In this document: positions 40,536-58,342 of the stretch, piece after piece
Layout: every line of letters begins with the position of its first letter
Position numbering within the stretch: position 1 is the first letter of the stretch
NCBI RefSeq assembly: GCF_030464345.1
Contig: NZ_VCYH01000001.1
Span: forward strand, 1 to 64,000
Direction: 5' to 3'
Source: Methanoculleus frigidifontis
Lineage (GTDB): Archaea; Halobacteriota; Methanomicrobia; Methanomicrobiales; Methanoculleaceae
DNA: 64,000 bases
Translations under genes and position numbers: made by a program
Notes under the pieces: model-generated
The model's database searches: none
Told to the model about the DNA's origin: nothing
Seen by the model: the letters and a program-made list of their open reading frames with translations, nothing else

Positions 40536-40811
40536 CCCGGCGTAAAGTAGGTTTCGGAGCCGTTACGTCAAGTACGCGTGAACCGTTTTTCATGGTACAT
40601 CCCCGGTACCATGCATGCACGTTACTCCATGCCGGGGCGGCCGGCATGCGCAACCGTTAAGTACCCGACCTGTCCCCAGGGGGAGTACGCCAGGACGGTC
40701 ACAGCGTAACCCTGCGGTACCAGCTACTGCCGGGCTCGGCCTCGGACGAATCGACTATCAGTGCTTCTCCCCCTGCAGGTGGCCGGCATATGGCATGGAG
40801 GAAGCGTGAGA
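40536..40811. promoter_or_regulatory. Divergent intergenic region
   Basis: Between the UPF0282 gene and the FAD-Rieske operon lie about 275 bases with palindromic segments (GGTACATCCCCGGTACC; GCCGGGGCGGCCGGC) and no gene. ATCGACTATCAGTG at 40748-40761 recurs as ATCGATTATCAGTG upstream of the NifX-like gene at 62.3 kb; the meaning is unknown. Confidence 0.3.
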
Positions 40812-42356
40812 ATGACAGATCCTGGAAGAGAAACACCTGAAATTCCCGGCCGGGCCGAATCGCTCTGGATTGCCACCACCCCGGAGACCGACTATCCGCC
40901 GCTGCCCGGCGGTCTGGAGGTCGACGTTGCGATCATCGGGGGCGGTATTGCCGGGCTCACGACGGCTCTCCTCCTCAAGGAGGCCGGCCGGTCGGTCGCC
41001 GTGATCGAGGCGGGCCGGATCGCCGCCGGCGTGACCGGGCACACGACCGCAAAAGTCACCTCGCTGCACCGTCTCATCTACCGGCATCTCATCGACCGCG
41101 TCGGCGAGGAGAAAGCCCGGCTGTACGGAGAGGCAAACCAGGCCGCAATCGAGACGATCGACGCATTTGTCCGGAAGTACGGGATAACATGCGATTTTGC
41201 CCGCAGACCTGCGTATACGTTTGCCCGGATGAAACAGTCGCTCGACAGCATACACGGCGAGGTCGATGCGGCGAAACGGCTCGGGCTGCCCGCAACGTTT
41301 GTCGACGATCTGCCGCTGCCGATCAACTCCCCGGGTGCCGTCCTGTTTGATAACCAGGCGGAGTTTCACCCGCGCAAGTACCTCCTCGGCCTTGCCGGGC
41401 AGATCGACGGTGACGGGAGTTCCATCTTCGAGCAGACCCGGGTGGTTGATGTGAAAGAGGGCAACCCCTGCACGGTCGTCACGGACCGGGGAGAGGTGAC
41501 GGCGGGCGATGTCGTTCTTGCCACGCATTTTCCGATAATCGACAAGCCAGGTTCGTATTTTGCCAGGATGCGGCAGGAAAGATCCTACATTCTCGGTCTT
41601 CGCATTGACGAGCCGTTCCCGGACGGCATGTTCATCAGCGCGGAGGGGGCTGTAGTCTCGCTGCGTTCGCAGCCGACGCAGAGTGGCGATCTCGTTCTCA
41701 TCGGCGGCGGCAACCATGCCACCGGCGTGGTCGGGCATACCGAGGCACGCTACCGGATGCTCGAAGGCTACGCCCGGACGATCTACACCGTCCGGTCGGT
41801 CGAGTATCGCTGGTCGACGCAGGACACCATGCCGGCCGACCGCATTCCCTATATCGGCCTTCTCGCGGAGGGGCACGAGCACCTGTACGTGGCGACGGGG
41901 TTTGGCAAGTGGGGGATGACGAACGGTACGGCGGCCGGGATGATCCTCACGGACCTGCTCCTCGGGAGCCCGAGCCCCTGGGGTGAGGTCTTCGATCCCG
42001 CGCGGTTTGAAAAGCGGCCACAGCCGAAAGAGGAGATCCGTGAGTGGCTCGGGGCCGCCGGTGGGACGGTCGAGATACCCGGGGATATTCTGGATGCAGC
42101 ACTTTCACAGCTCGGGAACGGCTCGGGAATTGTACTGCAGCATAACGAGCAGAAAGTAGCGGTCTACCGGGATACGGAGGGCAGAATTCATTCGCTCGAT
42201 CCTACCTGCATGCATATGGCCTGCCAGGTCTCCTGGAACGACGCCGAGCGTTCCTGGGACTGCCCCTGCCACGGTTCCCGCTACGATGCTCTCGGCAGGG
42301 TGATCGAGAGCCCGACGGTGAACGATCTGAAACAGAAGGAAATCAGGAGGATATGA
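40812..42356 (+). CDS. FAD-dependent oxidoreductase with C-terminal Rieske domain (copy 1)
   Basis: The 514-residue protein has a DAO-type FAD domain with the dinucleotide motif VAIIGGGIAGLTTALLLKEAG (written here only in part) near residue 40 and the FAD C-terminal motif FGKWGMTNGTAAGMIL. A Rieske [2Fe-2S] domain follows, with ligands in CMHMAC and CPCHGSRYD. It presumably transfers electrons between a small organic substrate and the Rieske cluster; the substrate is unknown. GGAGGAAGCG precedes ATG 40812. The gene is followed without gap by a paralogue. Confidence 0.85.
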   Translation: MTDPGRETPEIPGRAESLWIATTPETDYPPLPGGLEVDVAIIGGGIAGLTTALLLKEAGRSVAVIEAGRIAAGVTGHTTAKVTSLHRLIYRHLIDRVGEEKARLYGEANQAAIETIDAFVRKYGITCDFARRPAYTFARMKQSLDSIHGEVDAAKRLGLPATFVDDLPLPINSPGAVLFDNQAEFHPRKYLLGLAGQIDGDGSSIFEQTRVVDVKEGNPCTVVTDRGEVTAGDVVLATHFPIIDKPGSYFARMRQERSYILGLRIDEPFPDGMFISAEGAVVSLRSQPTQSGDLVLIGGGNHATGVVGHTEARYRMLEGYARTIYTVRSVEYRWSTQDTMPADRIPYIGLLAEGHEHLYVATGFGKWGMTNGTAAGMILTDLLLGSPSPWGEVFDPARFEKRPQPKEEIREWLGAAGGTVEIPGDILDAALSQLGNGSGIVLQHNEQKVAVYRDTEGRIHSLDPTCMHMACQVSWNDAERSWDCPCHGSRYDALGRVIESPTVNDLKQKEIRRI

Positions 42357-43900
42357 CGATGCCTGACCATATGAGCGGGGAGACCATCCCCGGAAAACAT
42401 GAATCGCTCTGGATGGCGACGACGCCCGAGACAGGGTATCCGCCGCTGCCCGGAGACCTGCAGGTCGATGTTGCGATCATCGGCGGCGGTATTGCCGGGC
42501 TCACGACGGCTCTCCTCCTCAAGGAGGCCGGCCGGTCGGTCGCCGTGATCGAGGCCGGCCGGGTCGCCGCCGGGGTGACCGGGCACACGACCGCAAAAGT
42601 TACCTCGCTGCACCGGCTCATCTACCGCTACCTCATCGATCACTTCGGGAACGACGGGGCACGGATGTATGCCGATGCCAACCAGGCCGCGATCGAGAAG
42701 ATTGAGGCTCTTGCACGGCGGCACGGCGTATCCTGCGATTTTTTCCGCAGACCCGCATACACGTTTGCCGAATCGGACGGATCTCGGGAGAAGGTCATGG
42801 ACGAGGCCGACGCAGCGCGGAGCCTCGGCCTGCCTGCAGCCTTTGTCGACGACGTTCCTCTGCCGACTGAGACCTTCGGCGCCGTCCGGTTCGACGGCCA
42901 GGCCGAGTTCCACCCGCGCAAGTACCTGCTCGGTCTCGCTGAACGGATCCATGGAGGCGGGAGTTATATCTTCGAGAGAACCCGTGCGCTCGACGTGAAG
43001 GAGGGGGAGCCCTGCAGGGTGGCGACCGAGAACGGGTCGGTGACGGCGGATGATGTCGTCCTCGCAACCCACTACCCGTTCCACGACGGACCGGGGTTCT
43101 ACTATCTACGGACATACCCCTCGCGTTCGTACGTCCTCGGGGTGCAGATCGACGAAGCGTTCCCGGATGGTATGTTCATCAATGCGGAGAGCCCCACGCA
43201 TTCTCTCCGCACGCACTCCGGTGAAGGGGGTGAGTTCCTCCTGGTGACCGGCGCCGAGCACCGGACCGGGCAGGGAGGGGATACCCGGGAGCATTATCGG
43301 GCGCTCGACGCCTATATCCGGTCGGTCTATACCGTCCGGTCGGTCGCGTACCACTGGTCGACCCAGGACTACATCTCGGTTGACCGGGTACCCTACATCG
43401 GCCCGGTCGCCCCAGGACACGATCATCTCTTTGTGGCGACGGGATTTGGGAAATGGGGGATGACGAACGGCACGGCGGCGGGGATGATCCTCGCCGATCT
43501 GATCCAGAAGCGATCCAGCCCCTGGGCGGATGTCTTTGCCCCCTCCCGCTTCAAACCCCTGACCTCGGCGAAGGAGTTTGTTGCACACGGTATCGATGTG
43601 GCGGAAGGACTGATCGGTGAACGCCTCGCCCGGCCGCTGTCGGACGTCTCCGCCCTCTCTCCCGGCCGGGGAGGGATCGTTGCAATCGACGGGCACAAGA
43701 CGGCGGTATATCGGGACGCCGCCGGCAGGCTCTACGCGGTCGAGCCGGTCTGCTCACATATGGGGTGCATCGTCTCCTGGAACGAGGCGGAGAAGTCCTG
43801 GGACTGCCCCTGCCACGGCTCCCGGTATGACGTCGACGGCAACATCCTCCACGGCCCTGCGACAGAAAGGCTGAAGCAGCGGGATATCAGTGACCGCTGA
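42353..43900 (+). CDS. FAD-dependent oxidoreductase with C-terminal Rieske domain (copy 2)
   Basis: This 515-residue paralogue shares domain order and long identical stretches with the gene before it. FAD motif: IIGGGIAGLTTALLLK. Rieske ligands: CSHMGC and CPCHGSRYD. Its ATG overlaps the TGA of copy 1 (ATGA), with AGGAGG just upstream, so translation is coupled; an ATG two codons on is an alternative. The pair is a tandem duplication that has diverged mainly in the middle and at the end, and both sets of cluster ligands are kept, which suggests two working enzymes or a heterodimer. Confidence 0.85.
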   Translation: MTMPDHMSGETIPGKHESLWMATTPETGYPPLPGDLQVDVAIIGGGIAGLTTALLLKEAGRSVAVIEAGRVAAGVTGHTTAKVTSLHRLIYRYLIDHFGNDGARMYADANQAAIEKIEALARRHGVSCDFFRRPAYTFAESDGSREKVMDEADAARSLGLPAAFVDDVPLPTETFGAVRFDGQAEFHPRKYLLGLAERIHGGGSYIFERTRALDVKEGEPCRVATENGSVTADDVVLATHYPFHDGPGFYYLRTYPSRSYVLGVQIDEAFPDGMFINAESPTHSLRTHSGEGGEFLLVTGAEHRTGQGGDTREHYRALDAYIRSVYTVRSVAYHWSTQDYISVDRVPYIGPVAPGHDHLFVATGFGKWGMTNGTAAGMILADLIQKRSSPWADVFAPSRFKPLTSAKEFVAHGIDVAEGLIGERLARPLSDVSALSPGRGGIVAIDGHKTAVYRDAAGRLYAVEPVCSHMGCIVSWNEAEKSWDCPCHGSRYDVDGNILHGPATERLKQRDISDR

Positions 43901-44406: not shown

Positions 44407-44556
44407 TCACCAGAGGCGTCCGCATCCCGGGCAGATGATACTGACCCGTCGTCCGCAGTGGGGACAGGAGAGGCCGGTGCGCTCGTTTGAGATCAGCGGC
44501 CTTCCGCATTTCTTGCAGTGGATCGGAGCTTCGAAACCGCACTCGTGCCTGACCAT
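44407..44556 (-). CDS. 49-residue zinc-ribbon protein at the end of the fwd operon
   Basis: This short gene reads MVRHECGFEAPIHCKKCGRP, then further CPHCGRR and CPGCGRLW. Three CxxC pairs plus HEC would bind one or two zinc ions. Its ATG overlaps the TAA of fwdC (TAATG), so it is translationally coupled to the formylmethanofuran dehydrogenase operon. It could aid assembly of, or metal delivery to, the complex, or be an RNA-binding ribbon; I know no established role. Confidence 0.7.
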   Translation of the reverse strand: MVRHECGFEAPIHCKKCGRPLISNERTGLSCPHCGRRVSIICPGCGRLW

Positions 44557-45326
44557 TAATCCTGATATGTGCAGTCCTTCACGATAAGGTTTCCTTTTCC
44601 TCGATTGGCAATATCGCCCGTGAATGACAGAAACTCTCGCCCGTCGCGGATCTCTGTCCCCATCTTTCTGAACGTGGGAAGCATGTCGTACGCAATGCCG
44701 TAGATCACGCATACCCCGCCGCTCATATTGCCGCACGGCCGCCGGCAGTCTCCCTTGATGATGAGGGTGCCGTCGTGGAGCTCCACACCCGCCATATCGC
44801 CTGCATTGCCGTGGATGATGACCGTCCCCCCTGCAAGGTTTTCCGCTGCGAAGTCGCCGGCATTCCCGAAGATCTCGACCGTTCCTCCGGTCATTCCCTT
44901 TCTGCCGCCGCGATACCCGGCGGCGCAGTAGTCCGCGGCGTTGCCGCGGCAGATGATGGTGCCGCCCTGCATCTCCCGACCGAGCCATCCGTCCGCATTT
45001 CCGCCGATCTCGATAACCCCGCCGCTCATGAAGTTCCCGCAATGCATCCCGATATCACCGTCGATAACGATCCGGCCGGCATCCATATACTCGCCGACTC
45101 GTTTCATGCGGGATGTGTCCCCGGACAGAACGATCTCGACATCCTCGGGACGGTCCGCGGCTCCCTCAATGGTGACTGCGAAGACCTCGTCGAGCGGCAG
45201 TTCCCTGTTGCCCCGCCAGACCTGGATCTCGGCGCCTTCGAGGAACGACGCGGGGGTGATCGTCTCAGCCTCAATCGGGATCGTCGGTTTCTTCCGCGGC
45301 CTGACCGCCAGGGAGACGCGCATCAT
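44556..45326 (-). CDS. fwdC: Formylmethanofuran dehydrogenase subunit C
   Basis: The 256-residue subunit has the glycine-rich beta-helix shared with the glutamate synthase alpha C-terminal domain, with repeats such as GDIGMHCGNFMSGGVIEIGG and GGTVIIHGNAGDMAGVEL. In the Fwd complex it supports subunits A and B. It overlaps fwdA by ATGA. Length is normal (about 260-270). Whether the complex is the W or Mo form cannot be told. Confidence 0.95.
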   Translation of the reverse strand: MMRVSLAVRPRKKPTIPIEAETITPASFLEGAEIQVWRGNRELPLDEVFAVTIEGAADRPEDVEIVLSGDTSRMKRVGEYMDAGRIVIDGDIGMHCGNFMSGGVIEIGGNADGWLGREMQGGTIICRGNAADYCAAGYRGGRKGMTGGTVEIFGNAGDFAAENLAGGTVIIHGNAGDMAGVELHDGTLIIKGDCRRPCGNMSGGVCVIYGIAYDMLPTFRKMGTEIRDGREFLSFTGDIANRGKGNLIVKDCTYQD

Positions 45327-47023
45327 AGCTCGGCCTCCGTCTCGATGCAGAGGTTCCGCTTCAGGTACTCGTCCTGGACCGGGTAGTTGCTCATCCGGAC
45401 GGTGTAATAGCGGTCGAACTTCGCGATGAAGTCCGGATCGTTTGCCATATTGTACTCCTCAGAGATCTTCGGTTTCACCCAGATGGTCGTGTTGTTGCCG
45501 TCGACCAGGCATTCACCGCGCCGGGAGACGACCCGGCCGCGCTTGATCGTGTACTCGGTTTTGCCGAACGCTTCGATGACCTTGCGGTAGTCGACGGCAG
45601 GATCGACCTCATCGGCGCGTACCGGGTAGATCGCAACATCGGCTTCGGCTCCCACGCCCAGATGTCCTTTCCCGATATCGACGATCCCGAGGGCTTTCGC
45701 CTGCGCAGCCCGGGTCATCACCGCTATTTCGTACCAGTCCATCTCCCGCTCGATCGCGGGGAGCGGCACCCGGCTCTCCGTATCGGGATGCACCGTCGCA
45801 AACTCCTCGTCCCGGTACTTCTTGCTCATCAGAAGCGCGATCACTTCCGGGTAACGGACGAACGGGGCGCCGTTCGGGTTATCCGTGGCCATGATACACT
45901 GCCACGGGTCTTTCACGAGGAGGCCGAGCTCGAGGCCTATCGCCCACATCACCGCGTTGACCAGGTTCTTGCGGCGGTAGAGGACCGGGATGATCCCTGA
46001 CCCCGTCTCGAGCTCAACGTCGTGGTTGCTCCATTTGTCGTGGTGGAGCCGGTAGAGGTTGAACTCCATCGGCCCGTCGGCGGTCATCGTGGTGGTCTTG
46101 CCGAACATCACCTGCCCCATATCGATGACGATCTGGGGGCGCATGTTGACGACGTTCGCAACCGGTTCGCTCTTCGAACAGAAGTCGCTCCATCCCGAAC
46201 CGCCGTAGGAGTGGAACTGGACGTGTGTCGCGTAGAGCGTCTGCCGCTTCTTGTTTAAGTCCGGGATGAGCCCGAGGGTGCCCATCGTGCAGGTGTAATT
46301 GCCGGGCTTGCCGAGGTTGTTGCAGTGGAGGTGGACCGAATGGGGCAGGCGGAGCATCTCGTTCGCCTTGACGACCGCCGTGATGATCTCGGACGGGGAG
46401 ACCTCAAAGTTTGGGACGGGGTTGTGGATGCAGGTCACGTCTTTGCCCCAGCCCCATGCCTCGGTGCCGCCGGGGTTCGTGAGTTTGACGGCGAACCCCT
46501 TCACCGCCGTGAGGAACCATCCGATGATGGCGGCGACACGCTTTGTGTCGCCGTCCCTGATCGCTTCCAGGATCGACCAGTTCCCGTCGAAGAGGGCGTT
46601 GGCCATCGTGTCCTGCAGGGGGGTGTAGAGGAACTCCTCATGGGTATGCCGCGCCTCAAGCGGCGCCATCGCCCCCTCGAGCAGGGTGGTGTAGCCCATC
46701 CTGCTGTAGCGGTAGCTGTTCCCGTAGGTGGTCGGCACGCTGTAGCCGGATGTGGCGTGCATGTACCCGTGCCGCGCCGTTCTCCCGGCCCGCATATCCT
46801 CCGGGCTCATGTACCGGCCGAAGTTCACCTTGGTGCCGCAGATATGCGTGTGCGAGTCGATGCCGCCGGGGAGCGTGAGCGCTCCGCGGGCGTCGATGAC
46901 CTCCGCCCCACCACCGACATCCTCGACGATCCTCCCGTCGCGGATGGCGATGTCCATCGTCTCGCCGTTGACGCCGCTTATCGGATCGATGACGTATGCG
47001 TTTTTAATCAGGATCTCGCTCAT
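45323..47023 (-). CDS. fwdA: Formylmethanofuran dehydrogenase subunit A
   Basis: The 566-residue subunit is the amidohydrolase-like component that condenses formate with methanofuran. The metal ligand motif GGIDSHTHICG is near residue 60, followed by SVHLHCNNLG and further conserved stretches such as IMATDNPNGAPF. ATG 47023 overlaps the fwdB stop (ATGA); the much longer open frame upstream is only the fwdB gene read in another frame. Length fits the family. Confidence 0.95.
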   Translation of the reverse strand: MSEILIKNAYVIDPISGVNGETMDIAIRDGRIVEDVGGGAEVIDARGALTLPGGIDSHTHICGTKVNFGRYMSPEDMRAGRTARHGYMHATSGYSVPTTYGNSYRYSRMGYTTLLEGAMAPLEARHTHEEFLYTPLQDTMANALFDGNWSILEAIRDGDTKRVAAIIGWFLTAVKGFAVKLTNPGGTEAWGWGKDVTCIHNPVPNFEVSPSEIITAVVKANEMLRLPHSVHLHCNNLGKPGNYTCTMGTLGLIPDLNKKRQTLYATHVQFHSYGGSGWSDFCSKSEPVANVVNMRPQIVIDMGQVMFGKTTTMTADGPMEFNLYRLHHDKWSNHDVELETGSGIIPVLYRRKNLVNAVMWAIGLELGLLVKDPWQCIMATDNPNGAPFVRYPEVIALLMSKKYRDEEFATVHPDTESRVPLPAIEREMDWYEIAVMTRAAQAKALGIVDIGKGHLGVGAEADVAIYPVRADEVDPAVDYRKVIEAFGKTEYTIKRGRVVSRRGECLVDGNNTTIWVKPKISEEYNMANDPDFIAKFDRYYTVRMSNYPVQDEYLKRNLCIETEAEL

Positions 47024-48309
47024 GGCTGGCGCACCTCCTGGATCCGGGCGTAGACGCTGCCCAGAATCTCTTCGTCGCTCGGATAGGCCGTCTCCAGCAC
47101 CTTCTTTGTCCGGATCGGGACGCCGTCCATCCGGTATGCCGTTCCGGCTGCGTCGATGCCGGTGATGCCCACCGGGATCTGGACGTCGCAGAAGGCCGTG
47201 GTGGCGTTCGCATACGGGTCGATCTGCACGACCGGGATCTCGGCGAGATGTTCGATGCAGGGGCGGGGGAAGTGGGCGGCAGGGTCGCTGGCGACGATCA
47301 GGCAGGCATCGCACTCTTTCCGCGCCAGGATGTCGACCGCCGTCGTCTCGCCCGGGTTGTAGAAGGCGATGCCGCGGGAGAAGTCGATGCCGAAGGGGTA
47401 CCCGGTCATCCAGGTGTTCACCTCGTTCGAGCCGTAGACGTTGTAGTGCCCGCGCATCGCCGAGATGGTGAACTTCGTATGCCGATTGAGTTCGTCCACG
47501 AGCTCGATGGCGTTGCGGATGTTCTTGTACTTCCCCGCGGTCATGGTGAGCCCGAGGCCGAAGTAGACCGCACCGAACTTCGCCTTCTTGCAGAGGTCGA
47601 CGATCCGGAAGAGCTGTTCGCGCTGGACGCCGCCGACGGTGCGGGGAAGATCGTCTCCCTTGCCCCGGACGATGGCGCGCAGGGCAGAGAGCACTGCATA
47701 GTCGCACCCGGGTTTGATCTGGACGAACTCGTCGGCGAGGTTCGTTGTCTGGGACTTCCTGACGTCGACGACGATCACCTTCCGGTCGCGGAAGGAGTTC
47801 TCCAGGAAGAACCCGTTTGCATACCGGGTATACCGGGAGAGGTGCCGCGGGTGAGCGTCGATGGGGTTGCACCCCCAGTAGATGATGATATCGGCGCGGT
47901 TCTTCACCTGGCCGAGCGTGCATCCCGGGTGCCCGACCTCCTGGATGGCCAGGATTGACGGGCCGTGGCAGACCGACGACGTGTTATCGATGACGCCCTT
48001 GAGGAGCTCCGCCATATGCACCCCGACGCACTGCGCCTCGCCGTGCGTCCCGCTCCACCCGTAGAGGAGCGGGCGGTCCGCGTCGAGGAGCATATCGACG
48101 GTGTAATCGATCGCCTCGTCGTAGCTGATCTCCTTCCACTCCTTCCCGACCCGCCGGATCGGGCTCTTCATCCGGTGATCGCCGAGGAACTTGCTGGTTC
48201 CGAGCGTACAGGCATTGTCGGTGGCGACGATCTTGCCGTCTTCCACCGTCACCTCGATATCGTCGCAGAGGCAGCCGCAGAAGGGGCAGACGGTGTCCTT
48301 AATGATCAT
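47020..48309 (-). CDS. fwdB: Formylmethanofuran dehydrogenase subunit B
   Basis: The 429-residue catalytic subunit binds a [4Fe-4S] cluster (VCPFCGCLCDDIEV at the N-terminus) and a bis-molybdopterin W or Mo centre. It reduces CO2 to formate with reduced ferredoxin. The metal-ligating residue in SSVCHGPS is cysteine (TGC), not selenocysteine. Length and order match other FwdB/FmdB. Confidence 0.95.
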   Translation of the reverse strand: MIIKDTVCPFCGCLCDDIEVTVEDGKIVATDNACTLGTSKFLGDHRMKSPIRRVGKEWKEISYDEAIDYTVDMLLDADRPLLYGWSGTHGEAQCVGVHMAELLKGVIDNTSSVCHGPSILAIQEVGHPGCTLGQVKNRADIIIYWGCNPIDAHPRHLSRYTRYANGFFLENSFRDRKVIVVDVRKSQTTNLADEFVQIKPGCDYAVLSALRAIVRGKGDDLPRTVGGVQREQLFRIVDLCKKAKFGAVYFGLGLTMTAGKYKNIRNAIELVDELNRHTKFTISAMRGHYNVYGSNEVNTWMTGYPFGIDFSRGIAFYNPGETTAVDILARKECDACLIVASDPAAHFPRPCIEHLAEIPVVQIDPYANATTAFCDVQIPVGITGIDAAGTAYRMDGVPIRTKKVLETAYPSDEEILGSVYARIQEVRQP

Positions 48310-48688
48310 ACGGCAGCCCTCCCAGTTCCTCCATCAACTCGTATATTGTCCTGCGGGGCTCATCGGTCGCATCGACCGTCACCTCCGTCGATTTGAAGTC
48401 GGGCATGCCCGTCGAGTGTGTCTCGCCGCCGATGATGTGATTTGCATACGGCCCGTAGGGCACGAAGATCGTGCCGGGTTTGATAAGGTCGTCGGCGGCG
48501 GCCGTGAGCACGACCCTGCCATACGGGCTTGCGACAAGGACATTCTCCCCTTCGTCGATACCGAGTTCCATCATGTCGAAGAAGTGCATGAAACAGGTGC
48601 TGGTCTCGTCCCGGTAGGCGACGGACCGTTTGTTCTCCACGTTCGCGCCCTGGTCGACCGTCCGCCCCGTGTTCATCATGACCTTCAT
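48299..48688 (-). CDS. fwdD: Formylmethanofuran dehydrogenase subunit D
   Basis: The 129-residue subunit is the molydopterin-dinucleotide-binding domain that completes subunit B in other enzymes of the family (GENVLVASPYGRVVL, GTIFVPYGPYANHIIGG). It overlaps the ferredoxin gene upstream by ATGA and fwdB downstream by eleven bases, so all are one transcript. ATG 48688 is chosen from the domain start. Confidence 0.9.
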   Translation of the reverse strand: MKVMMNTGRTVDQGANVENKRSVAYRDETSTCFMHFFDMMELGIDEGENVLVASPYGRVVLTAAADDLIKPGTIFVPYGPYANHIIGGETHSTGMPDFKSTEVTVDATDEPRRTIYELMEELGGLPYDH

Positions 48689-49290
48689 GCGCCTCTCTCC
48701 TGGATGCCTTCGACCATCCGGGCGACGCGGATGGCCTTGTTCGGGCAGTTGTTTTCGCAGGTCTTGCACCCGGTGCATTTCTCTTCGTGGATCACGCGCA
48801 CCCGTCCGCCCTCGATCTTCATGATCACCTCGTCGCTCGAGGCGGTGCCGGTCGAGGCGAGACTCGGGTCGGCCTGCTTGTTGACGGGGCAGGAGACCGC
48901 GCAGTTGCCGCAGCGCATGCAGAGCGTATCGTCGACGGTGAGGCGGTACCACGACCGCAGGTCAGTAGCGTCGTTCCGCTTGGCGTCGAGCACCCGGCCG
49001 CTCCAGAGGACGTCCTCCGGGCAGGCCTCAACGCAGAGGCCGCACCGGATGCAGTGTCCCCGGTGGATCATCGGTTTCCAGTGATCCGTGTGGCGCAGGA
49101 CCTCGATCGCCCCAGGTGCCGGGCAGATCATCATGCAATTGTAACACGCCGTACACTCGTTGCCGGTCGGTAGCGGGTAGTCCTTGAAGTAAGGGGGGGT
49201 TACCAGCGGAGCGGTCTTTGCAAACAGGAATGTGCGGAGCCACTCCATCCGCAGGAATTCGCGCAGGTACCAGATGATTGACGTGCTCAT
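48685..49290 (-). CDS. Four-cluster [4Fe-4S] ferredoxin linking Eha and Fwd
   Basis: The 201-residue protein has four CxxCxxCxxxC(P) motifs: CTACYNCMMICP, CIRCGLCVEACP, CMRCGNCAVSCP and CTGCKTCENNCP. It sits between the hydrogenase large subunit (gap seven bases) and fwdD (overlap). It is an electron-transfer subunit corresponding in position to the EhaP/Q polyferredoxins, and could also deliver electrons to the Fwd complex directly. No F or G polyferredoxin of Fwd is in this operon. Confidence 0.9.
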   Translation of the reverse strand: MSTSIIWYLREFLRMEWLRTFLFAKTAPLVTPPYFKDYPLPTGNECTACYNCMMICPAPGAIEVLRHTDHWKPMIHRGHCIRCGLCVEACPEDVLWSGRVLDAKRNDATDLRSWYRLTVDDTLCMRCGNCAVSCPVNKQADPSLASTGTASSDEVIMKIEGGRVRVIHEEKCTGCKTCENNCPNKAIRVARMVEGIQERGA

Positions 49291-49297
49291 TCCTCTC

Positions 49298-50389
49298 TTA
49301 CCTCTCGTTGCAGGCGATGCAGGGATCGCTGCTGATGAACGTCGACGTCACGTCGGCGACGGACGTCGCATCGGTGATCATATAGTGGGCGCAGGCCTCG
49401 ATGTTCATGATGGACGGTGTTCTGATGGCGATATCGAGTATCCTGCCGTACTCGTCGGACTTGATGTAGTAGGTCAGTTCACCGCGGGGCGCTTCACCCC
49501 GGTAGGTGATCTCGCCTGCACCGCAGAAGCCGCCGCCGCGGATACTGTCGCCTTCCCCGAGCCGGTCAACACACTTCCGGATGAGATCGATGCTCTGAAA
49601 GACCTCCTGAAAGCGGATCATAATCCTGGCGAAGTTGTCGCCTTCCGTCCTGCTGATCGGGGTAAACCCGAGTTTCTGGTAGGTCGGGTGGCAGAGCCGG
49701 AGGTCGGACTCCGGCAGGCCGCTCGCTCGCGCCGTCGGGCCGACGGCATGCGCCTCTATCGCCCGCTCGCGGCTCATGATACCGATCCCCTTGCTCCGCA
49801 AAGCGATCAGCGGCCCGGTCTCGAACATCCTCACGTAGCGATGCATATCTGCTTCCACCTTTACGAGGTCCGCGAGGAGCGCGGCCTTGTCAGCCTCCGT
49901 GAGATCGAAGCGCACACCGCCCGGGATCATGTAGGCGGTGTTGATCCTCGAGCCCGTGATCCGCTCGAGGTTGTCGAGGACGGTCTCGCGGACGTTTAAG
50001 AGGTACATGCCGAGGGTCTCGTGTTCGATCGTGTAGCAGTATGAGAAGTTTGCGAGGATGTGGCTCGCCACCCGGTCGAGTTCGTTAACGATTACCCGCA
50101 GGTATGCGGCTCGCGGCGGCACCGCGATCCCGCTGATCCCCTCCATCGCCTCGATGAAGACCATGTTGTGGACGACCGAACAGATGCCGCAGACCCTTTC
50201 AGCCAGGAACATCACCTCCTGCCAGGGGCGTCCCCGCATGATCCGCTCGATCCCTTTCTTCATGTACCCGAGTTCCACCTCGGTCCGGAGCACGCGCTCG
50301 CCGCTCGTCTCACACTTGAGGCGGACCGGCTCCTTCCAGCAGGGGTGCACGGGACCGAGGGGGATGGATACGTCGACGTTCTTCTTCAT
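49298..50389 (-). CDS. ehaO: Eha-type hydrogenase large subunit (NuoD-like)
   Basis: The 363-residue subunit carries the [NiFe] site. The ligand motifs are RVCGICS (about 75) and DPCIACNER at the extreme C-terminus, so it is a true hydrogenase rather than a complex I subunit. Start ATG 50389 follows GGAGAAGAAGCAGAA and overlaps the ehaN stop. There is no extension past the last CxxC motif beyond NER, so a cleaved maturation peptide is absent or very short. Eha versus Ehb or Mbh is assigned from subunit sizes and order. Confidence 0.9.
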
Positions 50390-50844
50390 TTCTGCTTCTT
50401 CTCCTCGTAGTCGTTGAACAACGTCGGCGCAAGCGCGAGTATGGCGTTTAAGATCTCCGTCGGCCGGGGCGGGCATCCCGGTACCTGGGCCGCAATGGGG
50501 ATGTACTTGGCGACCGGCGGTTCGATGTAGGAGTGCCACCGGTTAAAGACGCAGCCCGAGATGGGGCAGTTGCCGATGGCAATGGCTACCTTGGGTTCGG
50601 GGATCTTCTCCCAGATGTCCTGAAGTTTGTCCACCCACTGGGGCGTCATGGACCCGATGACCAGCAGGACGTCTGCTTCACGCGGGTTGTTGTGCACGTA
50701 GATCCCGTACTGCTCGATGTCGTAGCGGGGTGCGAGGCATGCAAGCACCTCGATGTCGCACCCGTTGCAGGAACCGACATCGACGTACGCGACGTGGATC
50801 GATCGTGAGCGTACGGTGTTTTTGATCTTCTGGAGGATGCTCAT
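50386..50844 (-). CDS. ehaN: Eha-type hydrogenase small subunit (NuoB-like)
   Basis: The 152-residue subunit holds the proximal [4Fe-4S] cluster: [22 protein letters not shown] and VPGCPPRP supply the Cys ligands. It joins the large subunit to the membrane part. Its ATG overlaps the ehaM stop (TAATG). Confidence 0.9.
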
Positions 50845-51227
50845 TATCGGATCACCTCCCGTATTCTGGCTAATCCTTCGTCGATTGCTGAATTTTCCTG
50901 TGTGCCGGATGCGATATGCGTCCGGACGTCCTCATAGATACTCTGCATCGCCTCGGGCGCGACCAGGGGAATGAAATCGGTGAAGAGCTCGCATCCGAGT
51001 TTCCGGGCGACGGGATCGTCCGTATCGGCATGCAGGAGCCCCATCTCGTAGCGGGCCTCGAGGTTCTCGAGGAGCGACATATCGAACGTCCGGATCAGGA
51101 TCATCCGCATCTTCTGCTCGCCGATACCGAGCCTGCGGGCGATCTGCCTGACCACCATATCGTGCCGGGTGCTGGTCAGGATGTTGTACTTCATCTGCCG
51201 GAGGTCCTTTTCGTACAGGTACTTCAT
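50844..51227 (-). CDS. ehaM: Eha-type subunit M (DUF1959-like)
   Basis: The 127-residue soluble protein, [20 protein letters not shown] onward, matches the helical DUF1959 type found in Eha operons between the small membrane subunit and ehaN. Its role is unknown. ATG 51227 overlaps the upstream stop; the longer open frame upstream only shadows ehaL. Confidence 0.75.
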
Positions 51228-51466
51228 GCGAGGCCGCCTCCCAGTGCGTAGACCACAAAACCGAGAACACTTGCCCAGAGCAGAGCCATCTCGGCGTTCT
51301 TGAGAGCAAGGGTCTCGCGCTGCCAGGTGATGACTGCAGCGGCAGCGAGCACGGCGATGCCGATACCCGCCTGCACCAGGACACTTGCGTTGCCGGCCGC
51401 CTGAGCCAGCATGACTGCTATATAAAATACGGCCCCGAGCGTGATAAGCGTGCGTATCAGATTCAT
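51224..51466 (-). CDS. Small membrane subunit of the Eha-type hydrogenase (EhaL-like)
   Basis: This 80-residue protein has about three membrane helices (LIRTLITLGAVFYIAVMLAQ; VLVQAGIGIAVLAAAAVI; ALLWASVLGFVVYALG). Position after ehaJ and size point to EhaL. No separate EhaK was found. Confidence 0.65.
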   Translation of the reverse strand: MNLIRTLITLGAVFYIAVMLAQAAGNASVLVQAGIGIAVLAAAAVITWQRETLALKNAEMALLWASVLGFVVYALGGGLA

Positions 51467-52308
51467 GCAAGAATCACCCCGAGAACGATGATATAGACCG
51501 CAATGGCTCCCGTCACCAGGCTCTGCACCGTGACGGTGTCATACGGGGAGAGCATGGGCGAGACCGCGCAGATGAACGAGAGCGAGACCAGGATGAGCAG
51601 CATCAGGAGCAGCGCCGCCAGCAGCGGCAGCTGCCCGATGAAAATCAGCACAAAGGCGTAGAGGAGGACATAGGTCTTGATGGCGTAGCCGACCTCGAGC
51701 CCTGCACGCCAGATGCCGAAGTGCTCGGTCATGTTCCCGCTGACGATCTCCTTGGCCTCGATGATCGCAAAGGGGCTGTAGTGGAGTTTTGAGAGGATCA
51801 CCAGGTACATCGCAATTGCCGCCGGGAAGGCGGCGATGAGCAGGGGGCCGTGCACCTGCTGGTACGCGATGATGTCGGAGAGCATCAGCGAGTGCGTGAA
51901 GAAGTAGATCAGGCCGACCGTTGCGAAGAGCGGCAGCTCGGATGCTGCGGAGATGACCGACCGGATCGCGCCGAACTTGCCGTAGGGAGAGCCCGACGAG
52001 AGGCCGAGCCCGTGCTCCACGATCTTGTGGAGGAGGTAGATGCCGAAGAGCAGCAGGATGCTCCCGCCCGAGAGCAGGATGAAGAGGGCTGCACTCCAGA
52101 TGCCGATGGCGACCAGAACCACCGCAACAAAGAGCGTCTGGCTCGCGGTCTTCGGTATCCAGGTCTCTTTGAACGAGAACTTCAGGGTGTGCAAAATCTC
52201 CTGCCAGATCGGCGGCCCCGGGCGTCCCTGGACGCGGGCGATGACCTTCCGGTGTATGCCGTGGAAGAGCAGGCCGATGAACAGTGCAAAGATCAGGTAT
52301 TCAATCAT
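51463..52308 (-). CDS. ehaJ: Eha-type membrane subunit J (NuoH-like)
   Basis: The 281-residue integral membrane protein resembles NuoH, the quinone-site/ion-channel subunit of complex I. Motifs include KVIARVQGRPGPPIWQEILH near the N-terminus and SPFAIIEAKEIVSGNMTEHF, both typical of the family. It connects the hydrogenase module with ion transport. Confidence 0.9.
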   Translation of the reverse strand: MIEYLIFALFIGLLFHGIHRKVIARVQGRPGPPIWQEILHTLKFSFKETWIPKTASQTLFVAVVLVAIGIWSAALFILLSGGSILLLFGIYLLHKIVEHGLGLSSGSPYGKFGAIRSVISAASELPLFATVGLIYFFTHSLMLSDIIAYQQVHGPLLIAAFPAAIAMYLVILSKLHYSPFAIIEAKEIVSGNMTEHFGIWRAGLEVGYAIKTYVLLYAFVLIFIGQLPLLAALLLMLLILVSLSFICAVSPMLSPYDTVTVQSLVTGAIAVYIIVLGVILA

Positions 52309-52309
52309 A

Positions 52310-52516
52310 TCAGTATCCTATGAACGGGATGTCCGCAACTCCTTCCGACGCGCTCCACCACAGTGCCAGAGCGATGACGAATACCGGGAAGGCGAGGACG
52401 ATCAGGATCTCGGCGAGCCAGACCGCAAGGTAGCCTATCGCCGCGAAAATCGCCGCGGCGACGCAGACGATGCCTGAGACCGTCGCAATTGTCAGCGCAC
52501 TCTGTTTTCGTTTCAT
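52310..52516 (-). CDS. Small membrane subunit of the Eha-type hydrogenase (EhaI-like)
   Basis: A 68-residue protein with two membrane helices, ALTIATVSGIVCVAAAIFAA and the following VWLAEILIVLAFPVFVIALA. It lies one base before ehaJ and four after ehaH. Named from position and size only. Confidence 0.65.
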   Translation of the reverse strand: MKRKQSALTIATVSGIVCVAAAIFAAIGYLAVWLAEILIVLAFPVFVIALALWWSASEGVADIPFIGY

Positions 52517-52520
52517 TGCA

Positions 52521-53189
52521 TCACATCGATATGACGATCTCCACCACCCGCAGGAAGACGAGCAGTGAGCTGACGTGCACCATCAGGATGAAGGGCGCTC
52601 CCTGGGCACGGGTGATCTCCGCCTTTGCTATGTAGAACGGTGCCATCCCTTCGCCCATCACCCCGAGCACCAGGAAGATCTTCGCGATCAGCGGCACCGC
52701 GACGGCGGCGGTGTAGAGCTCCCAGAGGCTCAGGGTGCCGGTCGTCGCCAGCACGATCGCCGCTCCCCCGAAGAGCGGCACCGTGGCGAGCATGGCGACG
52801 ATCCCATACTGGAAGGCAGCGTTCAGGACGTGCTTGTTCTTGTATGCCGCCACGATGCCGATGTTGGTGATCCCCACCATCGAGACGAAGAGGGTGAAGT
52901 TGAAGACGTCACCGCTCACGACGGCGCCGAGGGTGGCGAGCCCGCAGGCTATCGCCATGAACCGCTGGAACCGGAGGAGGCCGGGGTCGATCTCTTTTGT
53001 GTAGTAGGCGTCGCCGCCGAAGGCGATATCGACCATCTTCTCCGGCCTGCTGACGATGGCGAGTGCGGTGAAGATGAGGGCGAAGGCGAAGAGCGCGGCG
53101 GTGTAGACGCTGAAGTAGTTGACGATATCGCCGAACTCCAGGACGAAGAGTTCGCTGCCCCCGATGTTCGTCACCGGCAGGTTAAACAT
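52521..53189 (-). CDS. ehaH: Eha-type membrane subunit H (NuoN/MrpD-like fragment)
   Basis: The 222-residue membrane protein covers a part of the antiporter-like NuoL/M/N fold. It shows SGDVFNFTLFVSMVGITNIG and a conserved Lys in IAKIFLVLGVMGEGMAPFY, which could take part in ion pumping. It is shorter than NuoN (about 480), as expected for EhaH. Overlaps the gene upstream by eight bases. Confidence 0.85.
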   Translation of the reverse strand: MFNLPVTNIGGSELFVLEFGDIVNYFSVYTAALFAFALIFTALAIVSRPEKMVDIAFGGDAYYTKEIDPGLLRFQRFMAIACGLATLGAVVSGDVFNFTLFVSMVGITNIGIVAAYKNKHVLNAAFQYGIVAMLATVPLFGGAAIVLATTGTLSLWELYTAAVAVPLIAKIFLVLGVMGEGMAPFYIAKAEITRAQGAPFILMVHVSSLLVFLRVVEIVISM

Positions 53190-53787
53190 GCTCTCCCCCC
53201 CGCATCGTTCCGATAAGCGACATCTTTGCCATCACCTTGACGAGGATCGCCCCGCCGGCGATCATCACCGCAAAGAACCAGTACGCCGGCAGGAGCATGA
53301 AGATAAAGAACGCTCCGATCCAGAAGACCCAGGCATACCCGCTCACCGTCTCGATGATCGCGAACTGCTCGTTCTGTCCCCGGCACAGGAAATAGAAGAT
53401 CGCCCCGACTGCGGCTACTGCCCCGCCGGTGAACCCGGAGAGGATGATGCCGTAGGCGACCAGGATCAGCGCCATGATGCCGGGGGCGCTCTCCATCACC
53501 TCAATCCGGAAGGGCGGCGCGGTCGGTGGTGTCCGGAGGTCCTCTTTGGCGAGGTAGACCTCCGAGACCGCCAGCAGTTCCGAGATCCCGACCACGAGCC
53601 CGGGGAGGATCAGCGCCTCGGCAAGGTCGGTAGCGACGAGAGCGATCAGGGCGAGTGCCAGGATCTCGGCAAGGTCGGTGAGCAGGATCCGGTGCAGGTC
53701 GTCCCGCTCCCGCATAAGGGCGTAGAAGCCGATCAGCACCCCGGCAAAGACGACGAGCAGTCCGAGGACGTAGACCTGATCCATCAC
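53182..53787 (-). CDS. ehaG: Eha-type membrane subunit G
   Basis: The 201-residue protein has about five to six membrane helices and an N-terminal YVLGLLVVFAGVLIGFYALM. A Glu/Asp-rich helix (DLAEILALALIALVATDLAE) may take part in ion movement. Assigned from order and size. It overlaps its neighbours on both sides. Confidence 0.75.
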   Translation of the reverse strand: MMDQVYVLGLLVVFAGVLIGFYALMRERDDLHRILLTDLAEILALALIALVATDLAEALILPGLVVGISELLAVSEVYLAKEDLRTPPTAPPFRIEVMESAPGIMALILVAYGIILSGFTGGAVAAVGAIFYFLCRGQNEQFAIIETVSGYAWVFWIGAFFIFMLLPAYWFFAVMIAGGAILVKVMAKMSLIGTMRGGEHV

Positions 53788-54248
53788 TCCTCCCTCCGAA
53801 AGAGATATGCGGCGATGGCGAAGGCGACAAAGAGAATACTCGTCTCAACGACCGTGTCAAGTCCCCTCGTGTTGTAGAGGATCTCGTCGGTGATCCCGCC
53901 CGGGTGCGAGACGATCGTCGTGCCGAGGTGCATCGTCGAGTCTGCGAGGAACGCGGAGAACGGCGTTAAGTATGCCGTGACGTAGCCGAGGTACGGTGAG
54001 TTCTCCGGGTACTGCGCCGCGACGTCGGTCGTGCCGAACGGCTCGCCGCCGCGGTCGTACGGGTGGAGGCTGCTGCTCGGATCGAGGGTCTTCGGGTAGA
54101 GCTGGTCATCGTCGTAGCCGATGAACGGCAGCGTGACGATGCCGATGATGACGCCCCCCACGACCAGCAGTGCATAGAGGGCCGAGAGGTTCTCGTAATC
54201 GGAGAGCACCCGGGAGATCCGGCTGATGACAAGACCCGGCCGTGTCAT
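53784..54248 (-). CDS. ehaF: Eha-type membrane subunit F
   Basis: The 154-residue protein has an N-terminal helix (LYALLVVGGVIIGIVTLPFI), an external segment, and a C-terminal helix after RGLDTVVETSILFVAFAIAAYLF; the last part resembles MrpB/MbhF-like subunits. Assigned from order and size. Confidence 0.75.
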   Translation of the reverse strand: MTRPGLVISRISRVLSDYENLSALYALLVVGGVIIGIVTLPFIGYDDDQLYPKTLDPSSSLHPYDRGGEPFGTTDVAAQYPENSPYLGYVTAYLTPFSAFLADSTMHLGTTIVSHPGGITDEILYNTRGLDTVVETSILFVAFAIAAYLFRREE

Positions 54249-54493
54249 ACCGATCCCCTCCGCTCAATGACCCGCACGAGGACGAAGGTCGCGATCGCCG
54301 TCACGGCGATGAAGGTGAGCAGCGCCAGCGTCTCGTCGAATGAGAGCATGATCAGGAGCAGTCCGAACGCCGGGATCTCGAGGCTGATCAGCCGGCTGAC
54401 GTACGACCGCGGCCTCGGAAACGCGGTGCCGGTGATCCCGATGAGGAGCACGGCGCAACCGAGGAGGAACTCCGGGCTCATGGCCATGCTCAT
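54245..54493 (-). CDS. ehaE: Eha-type membrane subunit E
   Basis: The 82-residue protein has two to three membrane helices (FLLGCAVLLIGITGTAFP; LEIPAFGLLLIMLSF; ALLTFIAVTAIATFVLVRVI). It overlaps both neighbours by ATGA. An internal ATG two codons later is an equal start. Confidence 0.7.
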   Translation of the reverse strand: MSMAMSPEFLLGCAVLLIGITGTAFPRPRSYVSRLISLEIPAFGLLLIMLSFDETLALLTFIAVTAIATFVLVRVIERRGSV

Positions 54494-54720
54494 ACCGCAT
54501 CCCTCATGCAGACGAGCAGAATGATGATCGTCGTGACCGGGATGATCAGCCCGACGGCGATCGCGACGTCGAGGTAGCCCCTGTCCACCAGGAAGGGTAT
54601 CACGCCTCCCGCGATGATCGCGATGGAGATCAGTTTATTCAGGGAATCCGTCTGCACGACGGCACTCACGGCTCCGATGAGGGCGACCGCCCCGTAGAGG
54701 ATAGCAAGGAGGTCGTTCAT
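54490..54720 (-). CDS. ehaD: Eha-type membrane subunit D
   Basis: The 76-residue protein has two to three membrane helices (LLAILYGAVALIGAVSAVVQ; VAIAVGLIIPVTTIIILLVC) and the short loop PFLVDRGYLD. It overlaps ehaC and ehaE by ATGA. The start lies inside a longer open frame that shadows ehaC. Confidence 0.7.
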   Translation of the reverse strand: MNDLLAILYGAVALIGAVSAVVQTDSLNKLISIAIIAGGVIPFLVDRGYLDVAIAVGLIIPVTTIIILLVCMRDAV

Positions 54721-54962
54721 CTGCCGCCGCCTCCGCCTTTTGCATAAGTGCTTGCGATGGCATTCGACTCCAGCGTCGATCCGACGAAGTACGCGGCCGC
54801 GGCAACAAGGGAGAGGGGGTGATCGAGCAGCAGCACCAGCGACCCTGCGATGGCGAAGTTCATGACGTTGAGGTAGGGGAGTTTCCTGCCGGTTTTCCGC
54901 TCGGCGACTACTCTGACGGCGGCGAAGACGGCGATGATCCCGATGAGCGGGAGGGCGATCAT
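54717..54962 (-). CDS. ehaC: Eha-type membrane subunit C
   Basis: The 81-residue membrane protein starts MIALPLIGIIAVFAAVRVVA and ends in a glycine run (YAKGGGGGR). Its ATG overlaps the stop of the gene upstream. The longer open frame to 55223 only shadows that gene. Confidence 0.7.
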   Translation of the reverse strand: MIALPLIGIIAVFAAVRVVAERKTGRKLPYLNVMNFAIAGSLVLLLDHPLSLVAAAAYFVGSTLESNAIASTYAKGGGGGR

Positions 54963-55444
54963 GTCCGCCACCCCCAGAGCCGGGCGAGGAGCGCGCTCGC
55001 GTGGACATGCGAGAGTCCCTGGATGGTCAGAATGGCGAGAACCGTCCCTGCAATGAAGTCGGACGCGGCAAAGCCCGCCTGCATGAAGCCGTAGATCACG
55101 AAGGTGGCGAGGACTGCCCCGGTCGTCCCGGCGTATCCCGGGTCGTGGCAGATGCGGTTGCCGATGAAGACCAGCACCGCAGCTGCAAGGCCGCCGGGGA
55201 TGCCGGCGACGAGGAGGCCGCATGCTGCGAGCAGGGTTCCGGCCGAGGCGTCCGGCGAACAGACGATGTTCCCCATCATATAGCCGCCGTGGATGGATCC
55301 TCCACCGTCCCGGATATCCCTGGCAATTGCGGATGCTCCACTGACTCCTCCTGTCCGGGGTAGCTGAAAAAGAATGTCGACCGTTACGAACAGGACCCAG
55401 CTGATTATCGTCGCTGCCAGGATGTGAATGAGTTCATCCAGCAT
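54959..55444 (-). CDS. ehaB: Eha-type membrane subunit B, first gene of the operon
   Basis: The 161-residue protein has four to five membrane helices and the segment GGGSIHGGYMMGNIVCSPDA. It is the first gene after a promoter, with TAGGAGTACTG before the ATG. I see no EhaA upstream, so the operon seems to begin at EhaB, or EhaA is too divergent to recognise. Confidence 0.7.
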   Translation of the reverse strand: MLDELIHILAATIISWVLFVTVDILFQLPRTGGVSGASAIARDIRDGGGSIHGGYMMGNIVCSPDASAGTLLAACGLLVAGIPGGLAAAVLVFIGNRICHDPGYAGTTGAVLATFVIYGFMQAGFAASDFIAGTVLAILTIQGLSHVHASALLARLWGWRT

Positions 55445-57250: not shown

Positions 57251-57829
57251 TCAGAGACCCAGGTACTCGATCCCGGAGAGGATGGCGACGATCAGAATGA
57301 CCATCGGAACAATCACCGCCCGGGGATGGACGCCGAAAAGTTCGGGTATCGTCGTGTCGGGAATTTTTCCCCGTTGCAGAACCGATGCATCCAGACGGGG
57401 GTAGAGTTCGGCAAAGATCGCGGCACCTATGAGAATTCCGACCACCCCTCCGAAGAGAGCGTCGAGCGCTCCCGATCCGACTGCACCGGCGACCGTTCCG
57501 GGGCAATATCCGAGGACAGCAAACCCGCACCCGAAGATGATTCCTCCGAGCACCGTGGTGCCTATCGATCCCGGCTTGATGCTGAGGCTGGCAAGACCAA
57601 GGTGTATCAGCAGATAGACGCCCACCATGCCGACAGCCACCGCAGAGAGCATCACCTTTACCACGGTGAAATCATAGAGGAGGAGTTGCCCGATGATGAC
57701 GTCGTACCTGGTGACGCCCCCGAGCTGGAGGAAGACCCCGAACGCAACACCCATCACCAGCCCCAGAAGCCGTTGCAAGGACTGATTCCGGCGAAGGCGC
57801 TGCAGAGCGCCGCCGTCACGCTCTCTCAT
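57251..57829 (-). CDS. YeeE/YedE-type sulfur transporter, half 2
   Basis: The 192-residue membrane protein has about five helices and the family Cys motif FGCGFAVLGYCPGT. YeeE/YedE (TsuA-like) proteins carry thiosulfate or related sulfur species with Cys residues along the path. It forms a split pair with the gene before it, overlapping by ATGA. ATG 57829 is chosen from that overlap. Confidence 0.8.
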   Translation of the reverse strand: MRERDGGALQRLRRNQSLQRLLGLVMGVAFGVFLQLGGVTRYDVIIGQLLLYDFTVVKVMLSAVAVGMVGVYLLIHLGLASLSIKPGSIGTTVLGGIIFGCGFAVLGYCPGTVAGAVGSGALDALFGGVVGILIGAAIFAELYPRLDASVLQRGKIPDTTIPELFGVHPRAVIVPMVILIVAILSGIEYLGL

Positions 57830-58329
57830 GGGGCGATCACCCCGTAGAGCAGAAAGGCGACGATGATTCCGCTTACAAAGAAGACGACGACAGCGATCCA
57901 ACTTGCTATCGCCAGTTGCAGTGTCCCGGAGATCCCGTGCCCGCTTGTACAGCCTCCCGCCCATCGGGCACCAAGGCCCATCAGAACGCCCCCGACAAGC
58001 GCGACTGCGAGCCGGAGAAGGCTGCTCGATCCGAATGCTGCCTCAAATGTCGAGGGGACCCAGATGAGAGCGAACTCACCCTGCATGATCGCTGTGATGA
58101 AGGCTCCGATGACAATGCCCAGAACAAGCATCCATTCCCAATCGATCTGCGGGACGAATTTCCTGTAGTAGGACTTTTCAAGCACCGCATCGCCGCGGAT
58201 AGCCCGTTCTATCATCCCGCTCGTTCGGGCATAGGCCGTCGAACAGCCGAGAGGTCTGCCCGAGAGGAGGAAGGTAAACCAGCTGAGAATGCCTATCCCC
58301 AGGCCGGCGAGGTAGGGAGTCCAGTCCAT
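57826..58329 (-). CDS. YeeE/YedE-type sulfur transporter, half 1
   Basis: The 167-residue membrane protein has about four to five helices and two conserved Cys sites, GRPLGCSTAYA and AGGCTSGHGISG. Together the two genes equal one full-length YeeE. ATG 58329 follows AGGGGGTGGTCGC; an ATG seven codons upstream overlaps the MBL-rhodanese gene. Confidence 0.8.
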   Translation of the reverse strand: MDWTPYLAGLGIGILSWFTFLLSGRPLGCSTAYARTSGMIERAIRGDAVLEKSYYRKFVPQIDWEWMLVLGIVIGAFITAIMQGEFALIWVPSTFEAAFGSSSLLRLAVALVGGVLMGLGARWAGGCTSGHGISGTLQLAIASWIAVVVFFVSGIIVAFLLYGVIAP

Positions 58330-58342
58330 GCGACCACCCCCT

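Follow-up and report, generated by a model that had tools for sequence, protein, structure and literature searches.

Genes for formylmethanofuran dehydrogenase (Fwd or Fmd) are known to lie beside those of the membrane hydrogenase Eha in Methanomicrobiales. According to the available text of Anderson et al. (2009; PMC2686161), eha adjoins the formylmethanofuran dehydrogenase genes in each of the three Methanomicrobiales genomes examined at that time, and Eha was proposed to reduce the ferredoxin used by that enzyme. In Methanocorpusculum parvum, two Fwd clusters with separate ferredoxins were described, one Eha-linked and one Hdr-linked, and an anaplerotic role was proposed for the former (Gilmore et al., 2017; PMC5563889). 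A 2022 survey reported lineage-specific changes of the ferredoxin in Eha clusters (PMC9635834). In our study, we analysed a stretch of 64,000 nucleotides (the window) from Methanoculleus frigidifontis, contig NZ_VCYH01000001.1, in which 19 contiguous genes of the minus strand (55444 to 44407) encode Eha, a four-cluster ferredoxin and FwdDBAC. The locus is of the known Methanomicrobiales Eha-Fwd kind, since the eha genes are followed by fwd genes and ehaA is absent, as in the systems of PMC2686161. The adjacency and its functional proposal are thus already contained in PMC2686161, as far as its available text goes, and in PMC5563889. What we add is the make-up of the ferredoxin, which is likely a chimera, and the co-occurrence of the components. 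The joining of two subunit types in one protein seems to be new; the papers that a literature search on FwdG and Eha returned did not, judged by title and abstract, describe such a fusion, although the coverage left out most subscription journals and the fusion may be described elsewhere.

The question addressed is whether Eha delivers its electrons to a shared ferredoxin pool or to one enzyme. We read the locus as encoding a formylmethanofuran synthase that depends on H2 and is driven by an ion gradient; the ferredoxin would be a fixed bridging subunit and not a soluble carrier, and the role of the system is probably accessory or anaplerotic. From the sequence evidence we give this reading a probability of about 60%.

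Comparison with described systems

The locus resembles the Eha-Fmd systems of Methanocorpusculum labreanum, Methanoculleus marisnigri and Methanospirillum hungatei (PMC2686161) in taxonomic order, eha gene order, the lack of ehaA and the Fwd/Fmd adjacency. That paper treats adjacency and function; the likely NuoI-FwdG make-up of the ferredoxin, a separate FwdB clade and the existence of unlinked lineages go unmentioned in its available text. M. parvum (PMC5563889) shares the two Fwd sets with separate ferredoxins, but only two Fwd genes are named there beside eha; in the Methanocorpusculum loci that we examined these two were fwdA and fwdC, and a fused fwdD-fwdB was located elsewhere. The class I Eha of Methanothermobacter (PMC3087415) has the same EhaB-O core, the NiFe subunits and polyferredoxins within the transcription unit. 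However, its polyferredoxins EhaP and EhaQ carry 6 and 10 clusters and fwd forms a separate transcription unit, whereas M. frigidifontis has a single four-cluster subunit joined to FwdDBAC.

Homologous FwdB and companion subunits are found in the Fdh-Hdr-Fmd complex of M. hungatei (7bkb) and in FwdABCDFG of M. wolfeii (5t5i), both of which take in electrons through FwdF/FwdG. In the window operon these two seem to be replaced by the C-terminal half of the ferredoxin, and the donor would be a membrane energy-converting hydrogenase instead of the Hdr-based complex of 7bkb. Compared with Mbh (6cfw) and complex I, EhaO resembles MbhL, EhaN resembles NuoB, EhaJ resembles NuoH and the N-terminal half of the ferredoxin resembles MbhN/NuoI; MbhN and NuoI hold two clusters, whereas the window ferredoxin has a second two-cluster domain attached.

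The four-cluster ferredoxin

The ferredoxin gene (48685–49290, minus strand) encodes 201 amino acids with four CxxCxxCxxxC motifs. Each half was searched on its own against solved structures. Residues 1–97 matched NuoI/TYKY and MbhN (6cfw_N, 1.2e-5), the alignment with the latter covering residues 20–94 and so reaching outside the cysteine motifs. Residues 115–201 matched full-length FwdG (9sfi_U, 1.5e-14; 5t5i_G, 1.3e-12), and other ferredoxins scored far lower; the FwdG-like part was set at residues 115–191. An AlphaFold2 model built with 61 aligned relatives had a mean predicted local distance difference test score (pLDDT) of 78.9 and a predicted template modelling score of 0.62. Its best fold match in the PDB was again FwdG, with a template modelling score of 0.86 over the target, a root-mean-square deviation of 1.6 Å and 38% identity.

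A stand-alone form of the N-terminal half, 103 amino acids long and about 50% identical, was found directly after ehaO in G122 and G171 (loci L170 and L171), two distant genomes of another family of the same phylum, which supports a fusion origin of the ferredoxin. Three points lead us to assign the N-terminal half to the NuoI/MbhN type: an alignment that extends past the motifs, a location directly behind ehaO and this stand-alone form. The protein is therefore likely a chimera of an Eha-side subunit (NuoI/MbhN) and a Fwd-side subunit (FwdG), and the simplest reading is that the N-terminal half is an old outlet subunit of Eha to which the FwdG-like domain was joined. This two-part structure, as predicted, argues more strongly for a direct electron path than the layout of the operon does.

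Co-occurrence and the two FwdB clades

Co-occurrence was examined in 88 Methanomicrobiales genomes of at least 90% completeness, as raw genome counts that ignore kinship. Eha, the ferredoxin and the Eha-clade FwdB (clade II) were all present in 79 genomes and all absent from 9, and no genome was mixed. The 9 Eha-less genomes belonged to three families (f3, f4 and f5), so the three components were probably lost jointly more than once. The neighbourhood of the genes is not sufficient to explain this pattern, since all three are retained even in genomes where they are unlinked.

The FwdB tree was split with a support of 100/100. One clade contained the Hdr-type and other copies, about 41–48% identical to the window FwdB; the second held all Eha-linked copies and their unlinked relatives, including FwdD-FwdB fusions of about 570–620 amino acids (L127, L174, L175 and L177). 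In the near-complete Eha-less genomes examined, only the first clade was retained. The M. frigidifontis genome contained four full-length FwdB genes. One of them, at C6, lay in the order FwdG-FwdF-HdrC-HdrB-HdrA-MvhD-FwdDBAC, an order that the solved Hdr-Fmd structure of Methanospirillum (7bkb) would lead one to expect; the 108-amino-acid gene called FwdG there was labelled by its position and two cluster motifs, and the NCBIfam models gave it no match. The genome also contained a fused FwdD-FwdB (L127, 8974–10746; C2, about 391 kb), near a contig end, beside which no adjoining fwdA or fwdC was seen. A ferredoxin dedicated to Eha and Fwd, as the preliminary description had proposed, agrees with these data, as the window protein differs from the FwdF and FwdG that accompany the Hdr-linked Fwd.

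Gene linkage across genomes

Linkage was surveyed at 80 loci of named genomes and counted over the testable cases. In the other genomes, the ferredoxin was found directly 3' of ehaO at 75 of 76 loci, and fwdD and fwdB followed within 2 kb downstream at 65 of 70; a layout by chance is excluded by this conservation. In a second survey, a sample of 100 Methanomicrobiales genomes, EhaO was present in 86, and in all of these the ferredoxin lay at most 270 base pairs from ehaO. A related fwdB was found within 2.5 kb of eha in 60 of the 86 and at 2.9 kb in one more.

Proposed mechanism and alternatives

In the proposed mechanism, an ion influx through the membrane part (EhaH/EhaJ) would power H2 oxidation at EhaO. 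The electrons would then pass from the NiFe site of EhaO to EhaN, to clusters 1–2 and clusters 3–4 of the ferredoxin, and to FwdB of the dedicated Fwd, where CO2 would be reduced, and FwdA would make formylmethanofuran. The Eha-Fwd system probably has an accessory, replenishing role beside the Hdr-linked Fwd; this is favoured because the Eha-less genomes keep the other Fwd type and lose Eha-Fwd, and it agrees with the proposal of Gilmore et al. The preliminary description set an anaplerotic enzyme against a direct complex, but this opposition does not hold, since an enzyme may be wired directly and still serve an anaplerotic purpose, and the genome data favour the accessory role. A narrower form of the proposal, in which the chimeric ferredoxin joins Eha and an Fwd isoenzyme dedicated to it into a single supercomplex of the membrane, appears to us slightly less probable than an even chance. 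In such a supercomplex, no free ferredoxin would take part in the oxidation of H2, the influx of ions or the capture of CO2, and Eha-Fwd would be a membrane-bound, gradient-driven H2:CO2 reductase instead of two enzymes that share a carrier. A protein that resembles an outlet and an inlet together makes electron delivery directly testable in culturable Methanoculleus or Methanocorpusculum.

Several observations weigh against a fixed bridge. In 25 of the 86 Eha-bearing genomes fwdB was farther away, on another contig or, in one incomplete genome, missing; some of these assemblies are fragmented, yet in several single-contig genomes the genes were hundreds of kb apart (G001, G007, G025, G031, G043 and G054). 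The Methanocorpusculum loci L121, L122 and L175 contained only fwdA and fwdC after the ferredoxin, with the fused fwdD-fwdB about 6–10 kb off or elsewhere. Operon linkage was accordingly rejected as proof of a complex, and the argument from fixed stoichiometric synthesis in the preliminary description is weak in view of the same cases. In genome G224 the ferredoxin has the four-cluster form and its C-terminal half is again closest to FwdG, yet the sole full-length fwdB lies about 28 kb away, in a fwd cluster in which neither fwdF nor fwdG was seen; a fusion that arose jointly with the linkage to Fwd is therefore unsupported. As for the two halves, the best-scoring matches of the N-terminal one were polyferredoxins, FwdF repeats also scored high against the C-terminal one, and the confidence of the model was moderate and weaker in the N-terminal half. 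The 2[4Fe-4S] domains are alike across many families, and similarity is no proof of docking. Much of the co-occurrence could be the result of a few loss events.

The clusters are also not strictly conserved. All motif cysteines but one (15 of 16) were invariant in the ferredoxin alignment; cysteine 2 of cluster 1 was lost in 36 of 92 distinct ferredoxins, mostly of Methanoregulaceae, with A, H, Q, E or S in its place (L028, L032, L083, L097 and other orthologues). Strict conservation of all four clusters was thus rejected. The loss of this second cysteine is the pattern of 7Fe ferredoxins with a [3Fe-4S] cluster, and it is odd for a simple low-potential wire.

The unlinked fwdB genes and G224 would suit an operon of convenience, in which the Eha-reduced four-cluster subunit feeds a soluble ferredoxin pool and Fwd is co-encoded as the largest consumer, and in class I methanogens the electrons have been described as spread among many ferredoxins (PMC3087415). 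We nevertheless regard a pool as unlikely here, though it deserves attention: the C-terminal half is closer to FwdG than to pool ferredoxins or PorD in both sequence and fold, the operon is without a separate FwdG or FwdF, and the 79/9/0 pattern concerns a single FwdB clade. It may be asked instead whether Eha-Fwd is the main catabolic route of CO2 reduction, which is near the proposal of Anderson et al., who suggested that some members at least couple Fmd and Hdr to ion gradients (PMC2686161, available text). This is rather improbable, as the same genome has the Hdr-linked FwdDBAC set on C6, arranged as in the M. hungatei complex, and the near-complete Eha-less genomes that we examined do with the other FwdB clade only; a first step that consumes the gradient would, moreover, be expected to cut the energy yield.

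The system could also run in another regime, with Eha producing H2 as a vent for electrons when low-potential carriers are over-reduced, for example during growth on formate, or with Fwd oxidising formylmethanofuran. In principle, group 4 hydrogenases can work in both directions, and the genome encodes Frh and a Vhu-like (Mvh-type) hydrogenase as well as two more group 4 hydrogenase operons, which would fit such a regime. Its probability is small in our view: members of the order form methane either from H2/CO2 or from formate, and the available text of PMC2686161 gives the Fwd step there as CO2 reduction, while nothing in the sequence sets the direction. The gradient-driven synthase with a bridging ferredoxin consequently remains our preferred reading.

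Genes of the operon

The genes were identified by Pfam and NCBIfam profile searches and by position and homology in relatives, and all lie on the minus strand. The run from ehaB to fwdC and the zinc-ribbon gene was unbroken, as previously described, but it contains 19 genes and not about fifteen. The close spacing reported before was confirmed, the junctions ranging from an 11-nucleotide overlap at fwdD/fwdB to a 7-nucleotide gap at ehaO/ferredoxin. The majority were 4-nucleotide overlaps of the ATGA/GTGA type: ehaB/C, C/D, D/E, E/F, F/G, J/K, K/L and N/O in the eha part, and ferredoxin/fwdD, fwdB/A and A/C in the fwd part. A single promoter is plausible because about 310 base pairs precede ehaB and the upstream neighbour, an AI-2E-type transporter gene, is divergent.

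The first gene, ehaB (54959–55444), encodes a membrane subunit of 161 amino acids, which has no Pfam match and was named by its position at the operon head and by homology in relatives. It was followed by the Eha-specific membrane subunits C to H as consecutive genes, each above the cut-off of its model: ehaC (54717–54962, 81 amino acids; PF09882, DUF2109, 7.7e-31), ehaD (54490–54720, 76; PF09881, DUF2108, 1.3e-22), ehaE (54245–54493, 82; PF09880, DUF2107, 1.2e-27), ehaF (53784–54248, 154; PF09879, DUF2106, 1.8e-57), ehaG (53182–53787, 200–201; PF09878, DUF2105, 1.1e-74) and ehaH, an antiporter-like ion-translocating subunit (52521–53189, 222; PF10125, 6.8e-96, and Proton_antipo_M). A small membrane protein in the ehaI position (52310–52516, 68 amino acids) was conserved at about 33–68% in relatives, and the one in the ehaK position (51224–51466, 80 amino acids) was poorly conserved; both were assigned by position. 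Between them lies ehaJ, a NuoH-like membrane subunit (51463–52308, 281 amino acids; PF00146, 9.8e-30), and after them an ehaL/M-type soluble subunit (50844–51227, 127 amino acids; PF09218, DUF1959, 5.9e-10).

The hydrogenase small subunit EhaN (50386–50844, 152 amino acids; PF01058, 1.2e-27) is of the NuoB type and contained all four cysteines of the proximal 4Fe-4S cluster (CNGC, GNCP, GCPP). The NiFe catalytic large subunit EhaO (49298–50389, 363 amino acids; PF00346, PF00374; MbhL 6cfw_L, 1.3e-59) contained the NiFe-ligating motifs RVCGIC and, at the C-terminus, DPCIAC, so that both CxxC nickel motifs are kept as stated earlier. Among 116 orthologue matches only two were exceptions, one truncated and one without the N-terminal pattern only. 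The locus thus encodes an Eha energy-converting hydrogenase, which is predicted to reduce ferredoxin with H2 in a reaction coupled to ion transport. At the two loci with the stand-alone ferredoxin half (L170, 6021–9682; L171, 1020–4728), genes for the small and large subunits of another NiFe hydrogenase and for a cytochrome b-like membrane protein were found convergent beside eha.

The fwd part consists of fwdD (48299–48688, 129 amino acids; NF042908, 6e-31), the molybdo/tungstopterin catalytic subunit fwdB (47020–48309, 429; TIGR03129, 8e-184), the amidohydrolase subunit fwdA (45323–47023, 566; TIGR03121, 4.2e-235) and the GXGXG subunit fwdC (44556–45326, 256; PF01493, 3.8e-09, with homology and position in relatives). 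The equivalog scores were 781 bits for FwdA (cut-off 393) and 611 bits for FwdB (cut-off 328). The window FwdB belongs to the Eha-associated clade and contained VCHGP, with the metal-ligand cysteine, and the Fe-S motif CPFCGCLCDD. Among the 19 genes there was neither fwdF nor a separate fwdG, the C-terminal half of the ferredoxin being the only FwdG-like part; by its gene content the enzyme is classed as an intact Fwd core (FwdA-D) and not as an FwdABCDFG enzyme. HdrABC and MvhD were absent from the operon and present at C6, so it does not appear to encode a bifurcating Hdr-Fwd complex. The CHGx pattern of FwdB was found in 73 of 75 sequences checked, the exceptions being IYEGP in G077 and CHNP in another. 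In G077 (L176, 11875–13164) the Eha-linked FwdB with CHGP changed to IYEGP has a very long branch and fwdA was not found at the locus; this Fwd, beside an intact-looking Eha, is possibly inactive or repurposed.

The last gene (44407–44556, 49 amino acids) encodes a zinc ribbon (DZR, 9.9e-6, slightly below the cut-off). As it was found downstream of fwdC at only 23 of 56 loci, it is a weak candidate for a member of the system and is treated as optional. Elsewhere in the window, two overlapping tandem paralogues of a flavin adenine dinucleotide-dependent oxidoreductase (DAO) that has a Rieske [2Fe-2S] domain at its C-terminus were found at 40761–43900 on the plus strand. At 57251–59707 on the minus strand, two sulphur-transport half-proteins (PF04143) lie beside a metallo-beta-lactamase/double rhodanese protein, and this is likely a cluster for sulphur import and handling.

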